Shown one piece after another: positions 22,909 through 35,263 of a stretch of 35,642 nt of DNA. The notes beneath the pieces are model-generated. The model was given only the letters and a program-made list of their open reading frames with translations. It was not told the origin of the DNA and made no database searches. The translations under genes were made by a program, and so were the position numbers. This stretch comes from Deltaproteobacteria bacterium. GTDB lineage: Bacteria; Myxococcota; XYA12-FULL-58-9. The stretch is from contig JACRCV010000049.1 in assembly GCA_016218825.1 (NCBI GenBank), positions 1 to 35,642 on the forward strand. Direction: 5' to 3'. How positions within the stretch are numbered: the stretch's first letter is position 1; every line of letters starts with the position of its first letter.

Positions 22909-25900
22909 CTAGCCGGGCTGACGCTGGCCCTCGACCAGCGCCGCGCCGACCAGGAGGCGGAGCTGCATGTATTCCCTGCTGGTGGCAAACAGGACCAGCT
23001 CCTTGACCCGCATCCGCACCGGCATGTTGGAAGCCCCGAGACCGCCGTCGGTGACGCCGCGCACCGCCGCCGCCAGGTCCCCCGAGGCGAGCAACCCGGC
23101 GCGCATCGCGGTCAGCTCCACCGCCGCGGTGTAGAGCTCCAAGCCCCGGCCCTTGACGAGCTCGGGGTAGGCGGCCTTCGCCGGGCCCTGCAGCCGCTTC
23201 AGCACCTGCGGCTGCAACGCGGCGAGCGCTTGCGCCCACTGGGCGACGTCGCGCGGATCGCCGTTGTGCTGCAGCGACGGGTTGAAGAGCACACAGGCGC
23301 CGAGGAGGACGTCGCGGAGCACGTCGGCGGGATAGATCGCCGGCAAGAACAGCTCCGGCCGGCCGTAGGTCGACGTGCGCCCGACGTGGAACAGCACCAC
23401 GCGCTGCGCGGCGTCGCGGAAGATCTCGTTGTTCTCGCCGCCGACCAGGGCCGGGGGCTGCGCCGGCTCCAGGTGCAGCGCCTCCATCGAACCCGCCTTC
23501 CGGTACAGGTCGAGCTGCGGCAGGCTCAAGAGCTTGAGGATGTAGCGCATCATGTTGGCGAAGTAGAGATCCGACGTGCGCACGTCGATCTGGTCCTTCT
23601 TCTTCAGGTTGCGCTTCGCCGCCGGCTCGGTGAAGACGTCCGGGGCGCTGCGATACAACCACGCCGACAAGACGCCCACCGGCCCCGCCAGATCTGGATG
23701 CAAGAGCAGCGGCCACTGCTCCTCGAGCAGCCGCTGCGTGGCTTTCTGCGGCACCCCCTGCGCCAAGTACTCGAAAATCTTCATCTCTTCGGCGTCCGCC
23801 GCCTTCAGGAACGCCAGCGCCGAGCACAGCACGTACACCGCGTCGAAGTTGCGATCGGCGTGGTACAGCTTGCGGAGCTTCTTCAGCGCCTCCACCGGGT
23901 TCTCCGCGCTGCGGACGACCTCGTGCAGCATGTCGATGGCGCGCTTGCGGTGCTCGGGCTTCTCGGCGTACAGCTCCGCCATCACCGCGACGTCGATCGG
24001 CTTGCCGGGATCGAGCTTCTGAATGACCTCGTACGCCATGATCGCGGCGTCGACGTTCTTCAGCACCCGCCGGTAGAGCTCGGCGAGGTTGCGCCACAGC
24101 ACCAGTCGAATCTGCGCCGACAGGTCCTTGGCGCGCGCGATCATCGAGCGGTAGTTCTGCTCCAACAGCGCCCACTCGCGACGCGTGGTGAGGATGCGCT
24201 CGATCACCTCGAACGCCTTGATGTTGGTGGGGTTGGCGTCCAAGGCCTCGTTGTACTTCTGCACCGCGAGCGGCTCGTGCTTGATCTCGGTCTCGTAGAT
24301 CTGACCGAGGCGGAAACAGAGCGCCGAGAGCTTCTCGCGATCGCTCTTCGACAAGGCGATCGCCTGCTCCAGGACCTCGACCGCCTTCGGCGCCTGGTGG
24401 GCGTCGAGGTACGCCTGCGCGAGCTCTTCGAGCACCACCACCGGCGGCTCGCCCATGCGCCGCGAGCGCTCCAACGCCTCGATCGACCGCCCCATGTCGG
24501 CGAGCTTGGTCCTGGCGATCTCCGAGAGCTTGAGCAGCACCTGGCCGCGGTCGGCGCCGGCCACCGCCTCGGCGAGCACCGAGAGCCGCTCGTACGCGCC
24601 CTCCCAGTTCTCCATCTTCTCGTCCAGCTCCGCGAGCGCCTTCAACGACGGCGCGTGATCCGGATCGATCTCGAGGGCGCGCTCGAACTGCTTGTAGGCC
24701 CGATCCGGCTGGTTCTGCTTCAACCCCAGCTCGCCCAGCTGCCACTGGGCATCGACGATCTCGGACTCGGTCAGCGACTCCTTGTGGTGCACGAGGATCG
24801 TCTGCACCACCTTCTGTGCCTCTTCCCACTCGCCGGCGGCGATCAACGCCTGCCCCAAGCCTTCGAGCGCCGGCAGGTAGGTGGCGTCGGCCTCGAAGGC
24901 CTCGCGGTAGAAGGCCAGGGCCTCGTCCTTCTTGCCGATCTTCTCGCTGATGTAGCCCAGGCGGTAGTTCTTCTGGCAGTAGTCCTTCGGATCGGTGTTC
25001 TTGTCGATCTTCGAGACCACGATCTCGTAGAGCGCGCCGGCCTCGGCCCACTCTTCGTTGCGGAAGTGGATCTCCGCCATCGCTCGGGCGCTGTCGAGGT
25101 GCGCCGGCGAGATCTCGAGGGCCCGGCCGTAGTAGCGCTTGGCGCTCTCCTCGTCCTCGCGCACCTCGCTGTAGAACTTCGCGGCCTCGAAGAACAGCTC
25201 GGTCTTCTCGTCGTTGTCGTCCGAGGAGTCCGCCTCCGCGATCAGGTGCTCGGCGTAGGCGTCCCAGTCCTCGGCGGCCCTAGCGATCTCCTTCATCGCC
25301 TGCAACGCCGGGGTGTAGCTGGCGTCGATCTCGATGGCCTTCTGGTAGGCGGTGCGCGCCGCGGCCATGTCGCCGAGCATCTCTTCGTTGATCCGGCCGA
25401 TGCGCAACAGCGTCGGCAACACCGCCGGATCGGCGCCCAGGATCTCCGCTTCCTTCTGCAACATCTCCAGAGACTGGAACCAGTTGCCGCTGCGCTCGTA
25501 GAGCTGGCCGAGGGCGTGCAGCGCCGCGGCCGAGTTCGGATTGAAGTCGCGGGCGGCGTTGTAGATCTGCTCGGCTTTGTCGACCTGCGACAGCTCGCGA
25601 TAGTAGATCTCGCCGATCTGCAGATAGAGGTCGGTGATCTCCTCCGGCTGCTGCGCCAACGTGATGTGGTGGCTCAAGACCTCGATCAAGCGGTGCCACT
25701 CGGAGAGGCCGCGCAGCACCCGCTCCAGGTTCTTCAGGCTCGGGAGGTGGGTGGCGTCGACCTTGAAGATGCGCTCGAAGCACGCCGCCGCGTCCTTGAT
25801 GCTCTCGAACTGCTCCTCGTAGATCGAGGCCTCTTTGGCGAGGATGCGGATCTTCTCCTCGTTTTCCGCGGCGTTGTTGAGCTGCATCTCGAAGACCTGG

Positions 25901-28900
25901 ATCAGCTCGCTCCACCGCTCCAAGCCGGTGAACAAACGCTCGAGCGCCGCGAGCGCCCCGGCGTGGCCGGCTTGGATCTCGAGGACGCCGCGGTACCACT
26001 GGATCGCGGCCTCCGGATCCTTGAGCTCGCCCTCGCACAGCGACGCCACCTTGAGCCGCAGCGGGATGCTCGCCGCCGGCTCGGTCGCCAGCTCGACCTT
26101 GCGGGTGAGGGTGTGCGACAGATCGGCCCAGCGGTTCTCGCGCTCGTAGAGCCGCGCGAGGTTGTCGAGCGCCACCTGGTCGGAGCCGTCGATCTCCAGC
26201 ACCCGCTGCAGCGCCCCCAACGCCTCGTCGATCTCGCTGACCTTGTCCTCGTAGATCCGGGCGATCTCGAACAGGATCGCCTTGCGCGCCGTGTCCTCGG
26301 CGACGTGCGACAGCTTGCGCTGCAGCGCGGCGATCTGCTTGTCGTAGCGTTCTTCGCGCGCCCCGAGCGCGGCCAACGCGTCGAGGGCCTCGAGATCGCC
26401 GGGCTCGATCGCCAGGATCTTCTCGAGGCTCGCTTCCGCCGACGCGACGTCCGAGATCTTGTCGGCGTAGATCCGCGCCGCCCGGCGGAAGACGCTGATC
26501 TTCGCCGCGGTGTCGACGATGTGCTCGACCTCGTCCTCGAGCACCGCGACCAGCTCCTCGGCGCCGTTGGTCTCGACCCCGAGCCGCTCCAGCGCCTCGG
26601 CGGCGTGCGGATCCGCCGGGCTCTCCTTGAAGACGCGGCAGGCGGCGATGAAGGCGAGCTCTTTTTCGCCGAGCTTCTCGTCCTGCACGTTCCGGATCTC
26701 GACCAGGATCGGCAGGCGGGCGCCGGCCTCGGCGGCGTCGATGAACTCCTCGTGCAACGCCACGAGCTTTCGCCACTCGTTGGTGTTGCGGTAGACCTCG
26801 GCGAGCGCGGTGTGCGCCGCGGCGTCGGCAGGTGCTGCGACGCGAATCGCCTCGTAGGCGTTCTTGGCGTCGTTCGGCTTGTTCAGCCGGTCGCGATAGA
26901 TCTCGGCGGCCTCGTAATACAAGGCCACCTTGATGCTGACGTCGGCCTCGAGCCCCGCGGCCTTCTCCAGCGCCAGCACCGCCTCGTCGAACGCCTGGAT
27001 GTTCTTCAACATCTCGGCGAGCCGGGTCATCTGATCGGCGGTGTGCGGCTCGGTGGCCCGCACCTCGCGGGCGAGCTTGATGGCCTCGTCGCGCTGCCCG
27101 AGGTTCTCGCCGAGCGCCTTGGCGAGCAGCAGCCGGACCTCTTTGGCCTCGGCCGGGTCGGTCAGCGGGATGATGCGGCGGGCGGCGTCGACGAACTCCT
27201 TCCACATCGCCCGTTCGGAGTAGAGCCCCAACAGCGCCCGCAGCGCGTCGAGGTTCTTGGCGTCGCCGTTCAACACCTCGAGCCAGCTGCCGAGCGCGTC
27301 CTCGCTGCGACCGAGCTTCTCGCCGAGGATCACGCCCAGGCGGCGATTGATCTCCGACTTCTCGGCCGGATCCTGAGTGTGCGCCAGGCGGCGGCGGTAG
27401 TGCTCGGCGAGCTCTTCCCAGCGCTCCTCGGCGGTCAACAGCACCTCGAGGGCGTCGCTGGCGTCCTGGTGGGTCGGGTCGAGCGCCGCCACCTTCTGCC
27501 AGTGGTCGATCGCTTGGCTGTTGTCGTTGAGCTCCTCGGTGAACACCTGGCCGGCCGCGGCGTGGATGCGGATCTGATCCTCTTTGCCGGTGAGCACCTC
27601 GGACTGCCGCTGCAGGTTCTTCGCCAACGAGTCCCAGTCCTGGACCTCGGCGTAGAGCTTCTGCATCGACTTGAGCGAGATCGGATGATCGGGGTCGATC
27701 TCGAGGATCTGCTTGTGGCATCTGAGCGCCGCCTCGGCGTCCATCATCTTCTCGGCCAACACCGACGCCAGGCGCTCGAGCAGCTTGCTCTTGGTCCCCG
27801 GCTCCGCCGCCAGCTCGATGCGCCGCTCCAACAGCTCGGTCAGCGCCGCCCAGAGCTGGTTCTTCTCCAAGAGCGCGTCCAGGCCGGCGAGCGCCTGATC
27901 GTCGCCGGGCTCGTACTGCAGCGCCTGTTGCAGGAACGCGGTCGCCCGCTGGATGTCGTTGAGCTTGTCGCCCGCGATCGCGCCCAGCCGCCGCAGCGTG
28001 TGCTGGCGCACCTCCGGGTCGGCGATCGCGCCGACGTCGACGCCGGCGAGCTCGACCAACTCCACCCAGTTGTTGTTCTTCTGGGCGAGCTCCTCCATCT
28101 TCGCGAACAGCTCGAGGTCGGCGCGGTTCTCGTTGTAGGCGCGCGTCAGGGACATGAAGGCCATGTCCCCGACCCGGAGCTCGGCGTCGTAGGTCGACGC
28201 CAGGCTGAGATAGATCGTCCGGCGGCGCTCGGTCTCCGGGGTGTACTTGAGCTTGGTCTCGAGCAGCTCGACGTACTTCTGCCACGCCTTCTGCGACCCG
28301 TAGACCTTCTCGAGGATCAAGATCGCTTCGAGCAGGCCCTGCTGGGCGCGCTGCTCGAGGTAGACGATGGTCGAGCCGTGTGTCGGGTTCTCGGCGAGCA
28401 CGCTCTCGAACACCACCGCCGCCGCCTCGCGCTCGCCAAACTGCTCGTCGAGGATCCGCCCGCGGCGGTAGAGGTACTCCAGACGCCGCAGGACGACGTC
28501 GCGGCCGCGCTTCTCGGCGAGCCGGGTGGTCTCGGCCTCGTAGAGCTTGCCGAGGTCTTCCCACATCCCGAGCTGCGCCAAGAGCTGCTCGATCTGCCCG
28601 AAGGCGTTGACGTCCTCGGGGGTGAGCACGAGGATCTCGCGGTAGGTCGCGATCGCGGCCTGCGGATCGGTCATCTCCTTGGCCTGCAGCCCGGCGATCT
28701 CCGCCAGATACTCGCGCTTGCGCTCGAGCACCGCGGTCATCCCGAGCCGGTTGCGCAACAGCTCGACGAGATCGGCGTAGCTCTTCTCGGCGCGGAGGAT
28801 GGTCTCCAGGCCGTTCAGCGCCTTCTCGTCCTTGGCCTCGAGCGCCAGGATCGCGCGATACTCGGCGACCGCGCCGGCGGTGTCGGCGAGCTTCTCGTGC

Positions 28901-31900
28901 AGGATCGCCGCGGCCCGGCGATGAAACTGCAGCGCCAGCGGCGCCTCGGCCCGGCCGGCTTCGTCGACATAGGCGGCCGCCAAGTCGCCGAGCGCCCCGG
29001 TCTCGCCGGCGAGCTTCTCGATCCACATCCGAACCCCCATGTCGGTGGGGTCCTCGTGCAGCGAGCGCCGCGCCATCGCGAACGCGATGTCCTTCTTCTG
29101 CAGCCGGTTCTCGTAGATGTCGCCGATGCGCCGCAACAGGCCCTTGCGCTGCGTCGCGTCCTGGGTCCCCTCGAGTCGGGCCTCGAGCACCAGCGCCAGC
29201 TTCTGGTGGTCCTGCTTCGCGGTGTAGATCGGCTCCAGGATCTGGGCGACCTCGGCCTTGTTCGGGGCGTCGGTGAGCAGCGCCTCCAACCCCTCCATCG
29301 CCGCCGGGTGCTCGCGTTTCTTCAGCAACACCGCGCGGTAGTGCTTGACCGCCTCCTCCGGCTGCCCGAGCGCCACCCGCACCGCGCCGAGCTTCACGAG
29401 GTCGTCGACCAGCTGGGTGTTGGCGCTGCCCTTGGCGACCAAGGCCTCGAGCGCGTCGGCGCGTTCCTTCGGCTGCGACAGCTCCTCGAGCAGGCGGTCC
29501 AGCGCCCGCAGCGCCTTCTCGTCCTTCGGATCGATCGCGATCAGCGCCTTGTAGTTGTCGACCGCGCGCCCTTTGTCGGCGAGCACGGTCTCGCACAGCT
29601 GCGCCAGATCGGCGTGCAGCGCCTGTTTCCGCTGTCCCTGATCCGCGGGGAGCCGCACCGCGATCGCCTGCAGCACCTCGGCGAGCTCGGGGCTGCGGTT
29701 CTGTTGCCGCAGCAGCCGCTCCATGGCCTCGAGCGACGCCAGGTCGTCGGGGAGCTGGCCGCCGGTCGTGGCGCGGTAGTGCTCGATGGCCTCTTGGCCG
29801 CGGCCGAGGCGCTTGTCCAACACCTCGGCGAGCTTGCGGCGCACGCTGGCGGCGGTGTTGGCGTCCTGAATGACGCCGAGCGCCGCGGTGTAGGCGTCGG
29901 CGAGCTTCTGCCAGGCGCCCGCCGCCTCGGCGAGCCGCTCGAGCGCGTAGCGGATCTCGGCGTCGCCCGGCGCCTCGCGGAACGCCCGCTCCAGGTCGGC
30001 GTAGGCCGCGACCGGGTCGTTGAGCTTCTCGGCACGAATGGCCGCGAGCTCTTTCAACGTCGCCAACCGCTCTGCCGGATCACTGATCAGATCGACGCGG
30101 CCGGCGAGCAACACCGCCGCCTGCTGCCACTTCTGGCCGCTGCGATAGCTCGGCAGCAACACGTCGGCGAGCTGCGCCGCGACCTGTGGATCGGTCGCGG
30201 TCGCGCGCAGATCCTCCAACAGCTTCAAGGCCCCGGCGTGGGTCGGCTGCTGGGTCAACAACCCCTTGAGCGCCTGCAGCGCGGTCGCGGCGTCGCCCAT
30301 GTGTTTGCCGACGAGCTCGGCATAGACCACCAGACGCTCGTAGCGGTCCTCGCCGTCCGGCAACAGCCCGAGCTCGGAGTACAGCGCCTGCGCCGCCTCG
30401 TGCGGCCGCCCGGCCTTGAGCTGCAACGCCGCGAGACGCTGCCACACCAGCCGTTGCCCGGGGGCGAGCTCGGCGACGTGGGTGAGCTCGAGGATTGCGG
30501 CCGCGGTGTCGTTGAGCTTGGTGTCGAGGACCTCGGCGATTTGGCCGCCGAGCGCGGCGCGGCTGGTGTCGTCGACCGCGGCGGCGAGCTTGGCGCGCAG
30601 GTGGGCGACGAGCTCGGCCGGCTCGCCGGCGGTGGCGTAGAGTCGATCGAGCTCGGCCACCGCCTCGGGATCATTCTGATGTTGGGCGAGTACGGTCTTC
30701 CAGGCTTGGATTGCGTCCACAGTGCTGTTCATGTCGTGCTCGTAGTAACGTGCCAGCTTTCGCCAGTAGTTGCTGAGTTCTTGCCCTTCCAAACCAGTCG
30801 CGACGCTCGCCGCCGCCTCGAGGACGGTCTTGCGCTCCAGGCCGGCCTTCACCAGACGCGAGAGCGTCGCGAGCGCCGCCTTCTCGCCTTCATCGCCGAA
30901 GCCCACCACCCGCAGACAGTCGAGGGTCGCGCCCGCGAGGTCGCCGCCCTTCTCCGCCATGCCGGCGGCGCGGTTGAGCAAGCGCGAGCGCGCCTCGCCC
31001 TCGACGGTGACCGCTGCGGCGCGATAGGCGCGGGTCAGCCCGGCGAAGTCCGCGAGCTTCACCGCCAGGCGCTCCAGATCCACCTGCAGGCCGCTGTCCG
31101 CCGGATCGAGCTGGAAGGCGCGCAGCAGCGCCCCGAGGGCTTGCGGCGCCTGGTTCAGCCGTGACTCGTAGAGGGTCGCGGCGTGGCGCAGGTGCTCGAC
31201 CCGCTGGGCGTTGTCGTTGCTGCCGCGGATGCGGATCTCCAACATCGCCACCGCGCGGTCGAAGCGCTCGCGCCCGAGGTAGAACGGCTGCAGGGTCTCG
31301 GCGATCAGCGACACCCTCTTGGCGCGAGCGAGCAGGCGCTCGAGGCCGGCTATCGCCAATTCATTCCCCGGCGAGCTCTTCAGCACCGTCACGTACCAAT
31401 CGACGGCGCGGTCGACCTCGCCCAAGCGCTGCTCCATGATCTGCGCCAGCTCGAGCTCGATCGGCAGCCGCCCGGCCGCGTCCGCGACCCGCTCGCGCTT
31501 GTGGAGCAGGATGTCGGCGACCTCGGCCCAGCGGTTGTCGCGCCGATAGAGGCCAACCAGCGCCTCGAGGGCCGCGGCGTCCTCGGGCTGCAGCTTGAGG
31601 ATCTCGCGATAGACGTCGATGGCGCGGACGTAGTCTTTGGCGGTGTCGACGAGCTCGACCGCCAGCTTCTTGAGGATCGTGACCCGCTCGGTGCCTGAGC
31701 CGGCGGCGTCGGCCTGCTCGCGGTAGAACGAGATCTTGTCGCCGGTCGCGGCCGCTGCCTGCAGCAGGCGCTCGAACGCCTCTTTGGCGGCGGCGTCGGC
31801 GGGCGCCAGCGCCAGGATGCGGCGATGGATGCGCAGGGCGTCGAGCGGCGCCTCGCGCGCCCCCTCGTACAGGGCCGCGAGCGAGTGCAGGGCCTGGATC

Positions 31901-33570
31901 CGATCGGCGTCGACGACGATGTGCTCCAGGCCGTCCTCGAGGATCTTCACCAGCACCGCGAAGGCGTTGGCCTGCGCCGCGAGCTCCTCGAGCCGCTCTC
32001 TGAGCTTCGGGGTCGGCGTCGCGACGTAGAGCTCGCCCAGCGCCTCGAGGGCGTCGGCGGGTTGTTTGAGCGGCCCGGCGAACAAGTCGCCGAGCTCGTT
32101 CAGGATCGTGGTGCGGTCGTCGCCGCCGGCGCCGGCGAGCTTCGCCTTCAGCGTCCGGGCCAGCGCCTGGTGATCGCCGGCCTTGCGGTACACCGCCTCG
32201 AGCGCCCGCGCCGCCGCCTGGTTGGTCGGATCGAGGCCGAGGATCGCCTCGTAGTCCGGTCGGGCGCGCACCACGTCGCCGAGCTCCTCCTCCAAGATCC
32301 GGCAGCAGGCGTAGTGGGCCGCGACCTTGTCCGCGGCCTGCGTCGCCCGCTCGGCCCAGGCGTGCAGCACCTGCAGCGCCGCCTCCCACTCCTTGCGCTC
32401 GCGGTGGTACTCGGCGAGCGCGTTCGACGACATCTTGTTGCCGGGATCGAGCTCGAGCACCCGCCGGTGCACGCCGGCCGCGGCCTCGGGGTTGTCGAGG
32501 CGGACCGCGTGGTGCATCGCCGCCTTCAAGTAGAGCTCGACCGCGACCGCCGGCTCGCGGGCGTAGGCCGCCATCATCTCGAGCTTCAACGCCAGGTCCT
32601 CGTAGCGATCCTGGGCGCCGTAGACCTCTTCCATCAGCCGCAGCGCGCCCGGATGCCCGGGCCTGAGCGCCACGGCCTTGTCGAGAGAGGAGAGCGCGGC
32701 GTCCGGCTGGCCGCCGTAGACCTGTTGGATCTCGGCCACCGTCAGCCAGTACTCGGCGGTCTGGTTCGGATCGGAGCGGCCCGACGCCGCCGCCTGCTGC
32801 GACAGCTCGACGACCTTCGACGACCACGCCGACTTGTAGGCGTCGAGCTCGGCGAGCACCGCGCGCGCCTGGGAGTCCTTGGGCCGCGCCTTCAAAAGCT
32901 GCTCGATGGCGTTGCGCGCCGCCTCGTGCAGCTTCGGACGCTCCAGCATCCGGCTCGCGAGATAGGTGAGCCGGCTGACGATGTCGTCGGTGACGCCGCC
33001 GTTCTCGATCTCGGTGAGCAACGCGGTCAACGCTTGATCGAGGCGTCCTTGCTGCAGGTAGATCGCGGCGGTGGCCCGGTAGATCGCGGGGTTCGACTTG
33101 TCGGCCCGTTGCGCCTGGCGCAGCAGGGAGAGCGCCCGATCGTCGCGCTTCAGCTGCTCGCGGCAGATCTCGGCGGCCTCGACGAAGCCCTGGGCCCGGC
33201 CCTTGGCGTCGGTGGCGCGCGACAGCTCGCGCTCGTAGGTGTCGACGGCGCGCTCGTAGTCGCCGCGTGCCAGGTACAAGGTGCGCAGCATCCGCAACGA
33301 CTCGATGTCGGTGGGCGTCGCCTCGACGCCGCGGGCCAGGTAGGCCTCGGCGCGCTGCGCGCTCGCGAGCTCGCCCAGGCAGAGCGACGCCGCCTTGCGC
33401 CACATCTGGGTCGCGAGGCCCTTGTCGCCGCGCTGGGCGTTGTCCTCGTAGATCCGCAGCAGCTCTTCCCAGCGGCCTTCGCGCCGCAGCTCACCCTCGA
33501 CGGCCGAGAGGGCCGCGGGATCGCCGGGCTGTTCGGCCAGGGCTTTCAGGTGGGCCTGTAGGTCTGTCAT
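22909..33570 (-). CDS. gltI: Giant TPR-repeat protein, GltI/AgmK-like (3553 residues)
   Basis: Almost the whole chain is TPR-type helix pairs of about 35-40 residues with recurring A-x-Y/H-W/R-x-x-L-x-x-L-D/P signatures (for example KKDIAFAMARRSLHEDP, AIDHWQKVAALDPTHQDA, AEQIYNAARDFNPNSAAAL). No signal peptide, membrane helix or enzyme domain is seen, so it should be cytoplasmic. The last 350 residues (from about PHRKRAIDMLHEVV) are less regular and contain a conserved-looking block with LSLPQLDLYRKAG and GRTSTYGRPELFLPAIYP. Position before a GltJ-like gene, same strand, and size match agmK/gltI of the Myxococcus gliding cluster, where it is a cytoplasmic scaffold of the focal-adhesion machine. 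ATG at 33570 starts the helical pattern (MTDLQAHLKALAEQPGD). At 10.7 kb it fills 30% of the window. Exact orthology needs a tree. Confidence 0.85.
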   Translation of the reverse strand: MTDLQAHLKALAEQPGDPAALSAVEGELRREGRWEELLRIYEDNAQRGDKGLATQMWRKAASLCLGELASAQRAEAYLARGVEATPTDIESLRMLRTLYLARGDYERAVDTYERELSRATDAKGRAQGFVEAAEICREQLKRDDRALSLLRQAQRADKSNPAIYRATAAIYLQQGRLDQALTALLTEIENGGVTDDIVSRLTYLASRMLERPKLHEAARNAIEQLLKARPKDSQARAVLAELDAYKSAWSSKVVELSQQAAASGRSDPNQTAEYWLTVAEIQQVYGGQPDAALSSLDKAVALRPGHPGALRLMEEVYGAQDRYEDLALKLEMMAAYAREPAVAVELYLKAAMHHAVRLDNPEAAAGVHRRVLELDPGNKMSSNALAEYHRERKEWEAALQVLHAWAERATQAADKVAAHYACCRILEEELGDVVRARPDYEAILGLDPTNQAAARALEAVYRKAGDHQALARTLKAKLAGAGGDDRTTILNELGDLFAGPLKQPADALEALGELYVATPTPKLRERLEELAAQANAFAVLVKILEDGLEHIVVDADRIQALHSLAALYEGAREAPLDALRIHRRILALAPADAAAKEAFERLLQAAAATGDKISFYREQADAAGSGTERVTILKKLAVELVDTAKDYVRAIDVYREILKLQPEDAAALEALVGLYRRDNRWAEVADILLHKRERVADAAGRLPIELELAQIMEQRLGEVDRAVDWYVTVLKSSPGNELAIAGLERLLARAKRVSLIAETLQPFYLGRERFDRAVAMLEIRIRGSNDNAQRVEHLRHAATLYESRLNQAPQALGALLRAFQLDPADSGLQVDLERLAVKLADFAGLTRAYRAAAVTVEGEARSRLLNRAAGMAEKGGDLAGATLDCLRVVGFGDEGEKAALATLSRLVKAGLERKTVLEAAASVATGLEGQELSNYWRKLARYYEHDMNSTVDAIQAWKTVLAQHQNDPEAVAELDRLYATAGEPAELVAHLRAKLAAAVDDTSRAALGGQIAEVLDTKLNDTAAAILELTHVAELAPGQRLVWQRLAALQLKAGRPHEAAQALYSELGLLPDGEDRYERLVVYAELVGKHMGDAATALQALKGLLTQQPTHAGALKLLEDLRATATDPQVAAQLADVLLPSYRSGQKWQQAAVLLAGRVDLISDPAERLATLKELAAIRAEKLNDPVAAYADLERAFREAPGDAEIRYALERLAEAAGAWQKLADAYTAALGVIQDANTAASVRRKLAEVLDKRLGRGQEAIEHYRATTGGQLPDDLASLEAMERLLRQQNRSPELAEVLQAIAVRLPADQGQRKQALHADLAQLCETVLADKGRAVDNYKALIAIDPKDEKALRALDRLLEELSQPKERADALEALVAKGSANTQLVDDLVKLGAVRVALGQPEEAVKHYRAVLLKKREHPAAMEGLEALLTDAPNKAEVAQILEPIYTAKQDHQKLALVLEARLEGTQDATQRKGLLRRIGDIYENRLQKKDIAFAMARRSLHEDPTDMGVRMWIEKLAGETGALGDLAAAYVDEAGRAEAPLALQFHRRAAAILHEKLADTAGAVAEYRAILALEAKDEKALNGLETILRAEKSYADLVELLRNRLGMTAVLERKREYLAEIAGLQAKEMTDPQAAIATYREILVLTPEDVNAFGQIEQLLAQLGMWEDLGKLYEAETTRLAEKRGRDVVLRRLEYLYRRGRILDEQFGEREAAAVVFESVLAENPTHGSTIVYLEQRAQQGLLEAILILEKVYGSQKAWQKYVELLETKLKYTPETERRRTIYLSLASTYDAELRVGDMAFMSLTRAYNENRADLELFAKMEELAQKNNNWVELVELAGVDVGAIADPEVRQHTLRRLGAIAGDKLNDIQRATAFLQQALQYEPGDDQALAGLDALLEKNQLWAALTELLERRIELAAEPGTKSKLLERLASVLAEKMMDAEAALRCHKQILEIDPDHPISLKSMQKLYAEVQDWDSLAKNLQRQSEVLTGKEDQIRIHAAAGQVFTEELNDNSQAIDHWQKVAALDPTHQDASDALEVLLTAEERWEELAEHYRRRLAHTQDPAEKSEINRRLGVILGEKLGRSEDALGSWLEVLNGDAKNLDALRALLGLYSERAMWKEFVDAARRIIPLTDPAEAKEVRLLLAKALGENLGQRDEAIKLAREVRATEPHTADQMTRLAEMLKNIQAFDEAVLALEKAAGLEADVSIKVALYYEAAEIYRDRLNKPNDAKNAYEAIRVAAPADAAAHTALAEVYRNTNEWRKLVALHEEFIDAAEAGARLPILVEIRNVQDEKLGEKELAFIAACRVFKESPADPHAAEALERLGVETNGAEELVAVLEDEVEHIVDTAAKISVFRRAARIYADKISDVASAEASLEKILAIEPGDLEALDALAALGAREERYDKQIAALQRKLSHVAEDTARKAILFEIARIYEDKVSEIDEALGALQRVLEIDGSDQVALDNLARLYERENRWADLSHTLTRKVELATEPAASIPLRLKVASLCEGELKDPEAAIQWYRGVLEIQAGHAGALAALERLFTGLERWSELIQVFEMQLNNAAENEEKIRILAKEASIYEEQFESIKDAAACFERIFKVDATHLPSLKNLERVLRGLSEWHRLIEVLSHHITLAQQPEEITDLYLQIGEIYYRELSQVDKAEQIYNAARDFNPNSAAALHALGQLYERSGNWFQSLEMLQKEAEILGADPAVLPTLLRIGRINEEMLGDMAAARTAYQKAIEIDASYTPALQAMKEIARAAEDWDAYAEHLIAEADSSDDNDEKTELFFEAAKFYSEVREDEESAKRYYGRALEISPAHLDSARAMAEIHFRNEEWAEAGALYEIVVSKIDKNTDPKDYCQKNYRLGYISEKIGKKDEALAFYREAFEADATYLPALEGLGQALIAAGEWEEAQKVVQTILVHHKESLTESEIVDAQWQLGELGLKQNQPDRAYKQFERALEIDPDHAPSLKALAELDEKMENWEGAYERLSVLAEAVAGADRGQVLLKLSEIARTKLADMGRSIEALERSRRMGEPPVVVLEELAQAYLDAHQAPKAVEVLEQAIALSKSDREKLSALCFRLGQIYETEIKHEPLAVQKYNEALDANPTNIKAFEVIERILTTRREWALLEQNYRSMIARAKDLSAQIRLVLWRNLAELYRRVLKNVDAAIMAYEVIQKLDPGKPIDVAVMAELYAEKPEHRKRAIDMLHEVVRSAENPVEALKKLRKLYHADRNFDAVYVLCSALAFLKAADAEEMKIFEYLAQGVPQKATQRLLEEQWPLLLHPDLAGPVGVLSAWLYRSAPDVFTEPAAKRNLKKKDQIDVRTSDLYFANMMRYILKLLSLPQLDLYRKAGSMEALHLEPAQPPALVGGENNEIFRDAAQRVVLFHVGRTSTYGRPELFLPAIYPADVLRDVLLGACVLFNPSLQHNGDPRDVAQWAQALAALQPQVLKRLQGPAKAAYPELVKGRGLELYTAAVELTAMRAGLLASGDLAAAVRGVTDGGLGASNMPVRMRVKELVLFATSREYMQLRLLVGAALVEGQRQPG

Positions 33571-33819: not shown

Positions 33820-33847
33820 TTTACAAAATCACAGAGACAACTAATCT
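33820..33847 (+). promoter_or_regulatory. Promoter-like element before the hairpin pair
   Basis: TTTACA (5/6) and TAATCT (3/6) separated by 16 bases, in the most AT-rich stretch of the region. Transcription would start near 33854, at or inside the first hairpin. No protein gene follows on this strand. Confidence 0.45.
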
Positions 33848-33853
33848 AGGCAT

Positions 33854-33925
33854 GACGCCGTTCCCCCCCGGCGTCATGCGTGGCGGTAGGCGTCGGCCCC
33901 CCTTGACGCCTACCGCCCTTTTTTT
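33854..33925 (+). ncRNA. Candidate small RNA with two poly-C-loop hairpins
   Basis: Predicted transcript of about 72 bases between a promoter-like element and an intrinsic terminator. Hairpin 1 has arms gcatgacgcc/ggcgtcatgc (33850-33859, 33870-33879) and loop gttccccccc. Hairpin 2 has 13-bp arms ggcggtaggcgtc/gacgcctaccgcc and loop ggcccccctt. Both hairpins use the same gacgcc/ggcgtc core, so the arms can also pair across hairpins. C-rich loops are a known way for bacterial small RNAs to bind G-rich ribosome sites (as in staphylococcal RNAs). Flanking genes are on the opposite strand, so this is not a leader or tail of a known plus-strand gene. Existence as an RNA is inferred. Confidence 0.45.
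33882..33925 (+). terminator. Strong intrinsic terminator (13-bp stem, seven T)
   Basis: A perfect 13-bp GC-rich stem with a ten-base loop, one C, then seven T on the plus strand. It has the best terminator shape in the window. A competing small stem (cgccc/gggcg) surrounds the T-run. Confidence 0.75.
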
Positions 33926-33979: not shown

Positions 33980-35239
33980 TCAGGGCATAACGCATGCCGC
34001 ATCGCAGGTGGGGGGACTCGTTGTAGAGCCGCAGGAGTCACTCACGCACTCATAGTCTCGGGCACATGGCTCACCGTCGGCTTTCAGTACCTCGCAGGTC
34101 GGGGCCATGGACCTCTCCTCGCAATAGAGGCCGGCCTCGCAACCATAGCTCGCTCCGCACGCCTCGCCAGCGGCGGCGCGCGGCTCGCACGTCGGCGGGA
34201 CGAATTGGCAGACCAGCGGTTCGGCGCACTGCATCGGGTCGTCACACGGCTGGGATGCGTCGAGACGAGGGACGCAGGTGGGCGGGGTTCCCGCACAGAA
34301 CGCGGTCGCGACGCATGCGTTATCGAACCGACACACCTCACCGATGCCCGCTTCGCAAAGCTTGGCTGGCGTGCATTGTCCAACCGTCGTGTCGCAATAG
34401 AAGTCCCACATGCACTCGTTGTCCGTGGTGCAGGTAGCCCCTTCGCCGCCGCGGTCCGTGCAGATGTCGGAGATGCAGACGAGGGCCCCGGCGCAGCGGT
34501 CGCCTGAGACGCAAGCCGCGTCACGCGGCAGCCGGGTCGCGCAGTGGCTGGTCGCATCGCACCAGCCCGATAGGCATTCGAAAGAACTGGCGCACGGCGC
34601 ACCGGCCGCAGCGCGCTGACGGCAGAGCTGGTCAGCCGGGCCGCAATACAACCCGCTGGCGCAGCCGGTGCCGATCGGACCCGGTCGATCACAGAGGGAG
34701 CCTTCGGAGATCCTTTCGGCGCAGACCCGACAGGTGCGCGTCACTCCCGTTGAGGCGGGCCGCTTGCAGTAGTCCCCCGGCTGGCACTTCGCGTGCTCGC
34801 AACTCGCTCCCCGGCCGACCACCGGCAAGACGCCAGAGCCGAGGGGTCGAAGTCGCATACAGCTTGCCGGTTTGGCAAACGGCGTCGACAGCAGCGGGAG
34901 AAAGAAGGCAGCGTCGCCAAGATCGTACATGTCCCTGCACGTCATCGCTCTGATGTCGGCGACGCAGGCGTCGACCTCGGCTTGAGAGTTGGCAAAGACC
35001 AACGGCTCGCAGCCTTCCATCCACGTAAACGCAACACCCTCGAGGCAGCGGTTGGGGTCCATCACCAGCCGACCCCAGCCGTCGGCGCACCAGTCGATGC
35101 GACCGCAGAGTGCGACAACGACTTCGTCTCCGGCTATCCCGCCCTGGCTGGCTGCTCCCCCGCCGCTTCCGTCCGCGTGGCACGCAGCTGCACCTGCGAC
35201 GATCACGCCAAGGACGGCCTGCATTCTCGCGTTGCACAT
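33980..35239 (-). CDS. Cys-rich lipoprotein with Dickkopf-like disulfide modules
   Basis: 419 residues. The N-terminus MCNARMQAVLGVIVAGAAAC is a lipoprotein signal with Cys20 as the lipid-modified residue. ATG at 35239 is chosen because a gggga ribosome site lies just before it. After a domain of about 110 residues (VVVALCGRIDWCADGWGRL...) come at least six Cys-rich units of the pattern G-x2-C-x6-C-x-x-G-L-x-C (GTGCASGLYCGPADQLC, ECLSGWCDATSHC, YGCEAGLYCEERS, YECVSDSCGS), like those in the protease of this window and in many myxobacterial surface proteins. No catalytic motif. It lies 24 bases after DUF7305-like copy B, so the two probably share a transcript. Likely outer-membrane-anchored binding protein. 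Confidence 0.85.
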   Translation of the reverse strand: MCNARMQAVLGVIVAGAAACHADGSGGGAASQGGIAGDEVVVALCGRIDWCADGWGRLVMDPNRCLEGVAFTWMEGCEPLVFANSQAEVDACVADIRAMTCRDMYDLGDAAFFLPLLSTPFAKPASCMRLRPLGSGVLPVVGRGASCEHAKCQPGDYCKRPASTGVTRTCRVCAERISEGSLCDRPGPIGTGCASGLYCGPADQLCRQRAAAGAPCASSFECLSGWCDATSHCATRLPRDAACVSGDRCAGALVCISDICTDRGGEGATCTTDNECMWDFYCDTTVGQCTPAKLCEAGIGEVCRFDNACVATAFCAGTPPTCVPRLDASQPCDDPMQCAEPLVCQFVPPTCEPRAAAGEACGASYGCEAGLYCEERSMAPTCEVLKADGEPCARDYECVSDSCGSTTSPPTCDAACVMP

Positions 35240-35263
35240 GGCTCCCCTCGGTTGCGGCACCGA

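Follow-up and report, generated by a model that had tools for sequence, protein, structure and literature searches.

A gap between two minus-strand genes in a Myxococcota genome carries, on the plus strand, a compact element of two C-loop hairpins (33850-33925) that is probably a gene in its own right. It would encode a trans-acting small RNA of some 70 nt, whose loops would repress translation by pairing with G-tracts without the help of Hfq. Positions refer to the window, the whole stretch of 35,642 nucleotides that was analysed (contig JACRCV010000049.1, assembly GCA_016218825.1). The reading as a small RNA gene, first put forward in a sequence-only reading of the same DNA, is supported by conservation far above background, by a promoter and a terminator whose arrangement is conserved, and by the inversion of the element in place in a relative.

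Structure of the locus

The sequence-only reading had placed a promoter-like element, two perfect hairpins and a T7 tract at coordinates that proved correct. Hairpin 1 (33850-33879, plus strand) has 11 bp as folded, and since G33860 pairs with C33869 its loop proper is UUCCCCCC. Hairpin 2 (33882-33917, plus strand) has 15 bp closed by the loop CCCCCC and forms the stem of an intrinsic terminator; its tail of C plus T7 (33918-33925, plus strand) is evident in the sequence, and a terminator scan detects the hairpin together with the T-tract. The 76 bases from 33850 to 33925 have a minimum free energy of -51.3 kcal/mol (z = -11.2; dinucleotide shuffles give -22.7 +/- 2.6), and the C-loop bases are predicted to be unpaired with a probability of 0.87-1.0, the stem-closing C excepted. 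When the whole window was shuffled 100 times and both strands were counted, single hairpins of at least 10 bp with a C-run in the loop turned up nine times. Side-by-side C-loop hairpins of 11 and 15 bp followed by T7 are well beyond chance, and the layout C6..C6..T5 occurs only once in the genome from which the window comes.

The -35-like hexamer TTTACA (33820-33825, plus strand) is separated by 16 bases from the -10-like hexamer TAATCT (33842-33847, plus strand). A strict sigma-70 scan does not list this candidate promoter; its hexamers and their 16-base spacing recur in two relatives. Judging by promoter spacing, transcription is expected to start at about 33852-33856, which with the terminator would give a mature RNA of about 70 nt (33854-33924, plus strand).

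Both flanking genes lie on the minus strand, as had been noted before. On one side is a TPR-type repeat gene (22909-33570, minus strand, start near 33570), a single open frame of about 3,560-3,600 aa that several families of the order keep as one long gene. On the other is a gene for a 426-aa Cys-rich protein (33980-35260, minus strand). This downstream neighbour, earlier taken to be gltI-like, has a Dickkopf_N-type match (PF04706) and is not gltI. In relatives its place is taken by an outer-membrane beta-barrel gene.

Conservation and inversion in place

In a genome of the same genus (G001; JAKLEG010000352.1, a Myxococcota MAG), 69 of the 72 bases from 33854 to 33925 are identical (about 95-96%), against 68% for the adjacent coding DNA of the repeat gene, while the flanking non-coding DNA can barely be aligned; identity thus falls off on either side of the element. 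Both C-loops are identical letter for letter between these two copies, so the loops are conserved as well as the stems. Inspection of other genomes, in the DNA that precedes their orthologue of the repeat gene, revealed a third copy. It belongs to a second genus of the same family (G002; a single contig of a single genome) and occupies the same gap, but in the opposite orientation: in both relatives the outer-membrane-protein gene and, after it, the repeat gene are on the plus strand, and the element between them is on the minus strand in G001 and on the plus strand in G002.

The motif TTTACA-N16-TANNNT-N6-GACGCCG, the C-loops and the T-tract of G002 are all on one strand, having been inverted together. 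The geometry of the promoter hexamers, including a spacer of 16 bases and a further 6-7 bases before GACGCCG, is alike in the window, G001 and G002; TTTACA is the same in all three, and the -10-like hexamer reads TAACTT or TACATT in the relatives, with T1, A2 and T6 kept throughout. The C-runs of the two loops are C7 and C6 in the window and in G001, and C8 and C4 in G002. All six substitutions in hairpin 2 between the window and G002 preserve pairing (6/6), and one pair appears as U-A, U-G and C-G across the three genomes. In hairpin 1 the inner 7-bp core GACGCCG/CGGCGTC is kept (its last pair is G-U in G002) and the outer four pairs are not conserved, which fits a start near 33854 that would leave the outer bases upstream of the RNA. 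The formal covariation analysis did not exceed its shuffle controls, which three sequences cannot take to significance.

Because promoter, C-loops and T-tract have flipped together, the element serves neither neighbour in cis. The inversion fixes the functional strand and is incompatible with a role as the private leader or terminator of either neighbour; both a leader of the TPR gene and a minus-strand function of the complementary G-loops are excluded by it. With a promoter and a terminator of its own, and the ability to flip in place, the element is a probable autonomous gene.

Could it instead be nothing more than a strong tandem or bidirectional intergenic terminator, its poly-C loops incidental? 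Hairpin 2 with its T7 is a textbook terminator, and the phylum does have C-loop terminators behind genes. In G002 the outer-membrane-protein gene even has the element on its 3' side, in the same orientation, and this copy could additionally act as that gene's terminator. However, no plus-strand gene (in the orientation of the window) runs into the element in the window or in G001, termination does not need hairpin 1, the element has its own conserved promoter hexamers, and the letters of the loops are conserved like those of the stems between the window and G001. We therefore regard a plain terminator as unlikely, and a small RNA gene as the better account.

The known carriers are three genomes of one family (f1), at least one of them metagenome-derived, and the element was not found in the same gap of other genomes of the order. 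A DNA search of 97 genomes returned G001 as the sole homologue, weak matches elsewhere being short and devoid of the two-hairpin layout. A search of 39 genomes with a model of the element (R1) was strong only for the three f1 copies, with weak matches of 24.5-29.8 bits that have no C-loop layout; in GC-rich genomes this search scores only a fraction of candidates, and absence elsewhere is thus not established. The arm pattern of hairpin 2, GGCGGTAG..CTACCGCC, has matches outside f1 among 195 genomes, all without C-loops, and the palindrome of G000 and G004 (see below) falls in a coding stretch. In the same number of genomes the counts of the C6..C6..T5 pattern were not clearly above a reversed-pattern control, and the C-loop candidates among its matches were inspected. 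Viral contigs held no match to the element, and a plasmid search gave a single 31-base match (E 0.1). The latter, GCATGACGCCCCTTCCCCCCGGCGTCATGC, is near-identical to hairpin 1 and lies in an unannotated stretch of a Streptomyces plasmid (NZ_CP108713.1:16419-16449; L160:1501-1531), where no terminator follows it; at this E value it is possibly a chance match.

Relation to the 6C RNA

Two adjacent hairpins with C-loops are a layout best known from the actinobacterial 6C RNA. According to the sequence-only reading, no named myxobacterial RNA of this layout was known, which holds for the literature searched; the arrangement as such, though, is the one that defines Rfam 6C (RF01066). In a sensitive scan of 161 bases, and only there, the window copy matches RF01066 over its full length (model positions 1-75 of 75) and scores 55.6 bits, where the curated gathering cut-off is 47 bits. 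Two adjacent stem-loops with at least six C per loop, as in 6C, are present in the window and in G001 and partly in G002; the host is a member of the Myxococcota, whereas 6C belongs to Actinomycetales and other actinobacteria.

The full-length match could mean that the element truly belongs to RF01066 and shares an ancestor with the actinobacterial RNA, whether through vertical descent or through transfer. Its orthologues argue against this: the G001 copy scores 43.0 bits, under the cut-off, and the G002 copy gives no match at E<=10. Default Rfam scans do not report the window copy as RF01066 either, and its stems show little letter-for-letter agreement with the 6C consensus. Searches of whole genomes with RF01066 are uninformative where GC content is high: out of thousands of candidates they scored no more than 23-150, and they missed the known copy.

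The score can be calibrated on structures of other kinds. In the genus g70, tandem C-loop hairpins just after a stop codon reach 41-43 bits against RF01066, and because the C-runs of their loops are missing in some members of the genus, these are ordinary terminators. One of them, in G128, had surfaced as a C6..C6..T5 candidate and was set aside as a terminator just behind a g70 gene whose C-loops are not kept; this locus (L111, G128:C75:98757-98816) and its relatives (L121-L125, L128) now provide a useful false-positive control for 6C scores. G003, from the same order but a different family, has an intergenic structure with two C6 loops and unrelated stems that reaches a similar 42.4 bits. 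The layout alone would therefore be worth about 43 bits, and the RF01066 score would largely reflect layout; the window copy stands 12 bits over the g70 terminators and the G001 copy is equal to them. True membership of RF01066 is rather improbable. By analogy the element would function like 6C.

The third alternative starts from the core gacgcc/ggcgtc that the arms of both hairpins have in common, which the sequence-only reading had seen as the basis of two mutually exclusive folds and a possible switch; this riboswitch-like reading is almost certainly wrong on fold energy and on the G002 sequence, since left-left and right-right pairing reach only -21.3 and -19.1 kcal/mol (30-32 kcal/mol worse than the -51.3 of the hairpins, with an ensemble probability <1e-20), hairpin 1 is intact and favoured at each partial transcript length tested, and the left-left pairing is weakened in G002 by one mismatch and one wobble.

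Proposed mechanism and comparison with known RNAs

Transcription of the small RNA would begin at the base of hairpin 1, driven by a sigma-70-type promoter, and stop at hairpin 2 with its T-tract. Two rigid stems would keep the C-runs open as seed loops, whose most likely partners are G-tracts that overlap or lie close to the ribosome-binding sites of several mRNAs. Such pairing would repress translation with no need for Hfq, as it does in 6C/B11 and sX13. That the poly-C loops bind G-rich ribosome sites, as already suggested from the sequence, is plausible by analogy (PMC12395582, PMC10470900, PMC3771888). In mycobacterial 6C/B11, G-tracts next to ribosome-binding sites are the pairing partners of the C-rich loops, that of the terminator included (PMC12395582, PMC10470900), and in Xanthomonas sX13 such pairing of C-loops with G-tracts takes place without Hfq (PMC3771888).

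A search for Hfq in seven genomes of the phylum found none at E<=0.01, with five control genomes positive, and the absence of Hfq in myxobacteria has been stated before (PMC5684412). As in the class of Hfq-independent small RNAs with C-rich loops, the C-runs of the element are predicted to be exposed on stable stems, in a phylum without detectable Hfq. Given these two features and the precedent of 6C/B11 and sX13, we infer that repression of translation through loop-to-G-tract pairing is the most likely action. A scan for CAAGGGGG-N3-10-ATG yields candidate target starts in each genome, in that of the window hflC-like and trmB-like genes (named from their translations); it gave no orthologous target common to two genomes.

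Among known systems, 6C/B11 and the element have in common two neighbouring C-loop hairpins of which the second is the terminator, a length of about 70-100 nt, and hosts without Hfq (PMC4046766, PMC12395582). They differ in phylum, few stem letters are shared, the orthologues fall below the cut-off, and common descent is unsupported. The C-rich loops of sX13 are likewise Hfq-independent and target G-rich motifs near start codons (PMC3771888), but sX13 is built of three stem-loops plus an unstructured 5' region, whereas the element has two hairpins and hardly any single-stranded part. Pxr (RF01812) is a regulatory small RNA of the same phylum and also Hfq-independent, but the element scores 15.1 bits against its model (cut-off 80) and is unrelated. 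Streptomyces Scr3202 (RF02833) carries C-rich loops on two stems, as the element does; the score here is 32.0 bits, against a cut-off of 52.

Other C-loop structures and implications

Further C-loop structures occur in the collection of genomes. The double hairpin of G003 (G003:C173:11077-11157, L113:3077-3157, minus strand; z -8.9) lies in the gap between divergent xerC-like and small lipoprotein-like genes, and is a probable separate C-loop small RNA. In family f28 (L107, G094:C1:100151-100245, minus strand; L108, G193:C109:86-169, plus strand), the hairpin AGCGGGCTCGGCA..TGCCGAGCCCGCT, of terminator type and closed by a C6-C8 loop, is near-identical in two genera and has another long C-run ahead of it. 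Family f21 (L109, G040:C90:2882-2946, plus strand; L110, G043:C8:124873-124953, minus strand) shows a strong C7-loop hairpin followed by a T-tract, with a further C-run in or near an upstream hairpin. A 13-bp palindrome, GGCGGTAGGGACC..GGTCCCTACCGCC, lies inside the apparent start of a murF-type gene in two genomes (G000:C100:101698-101730 and G004:C8:223334-223366); its letters encode a conserved-looking motif, and it is therefore probably coding only.

It is conceivable, if doubtful, that 6C-type riboregulators with two C-loops recur, perhaps through repeated invention, in GC-rich phyla that lack Hfq, with the structures of f1, G003, f21 and f28 forming one functional class in the Myxococcota. 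The element also exposes a blind spot, in that default Rfam scans and prefiltered genome searches overlook the window copy despite a full score above the cut-off. The literature searched links C-loop RNAs of the 6C type to actinobacteria only. If another Hfq-less phylum has a conserved, free-standing counterpart, exposed C-loops carried by rigid stems would seem to be a general means of regulating translation without a chaperone, for which this element is a compact test case.
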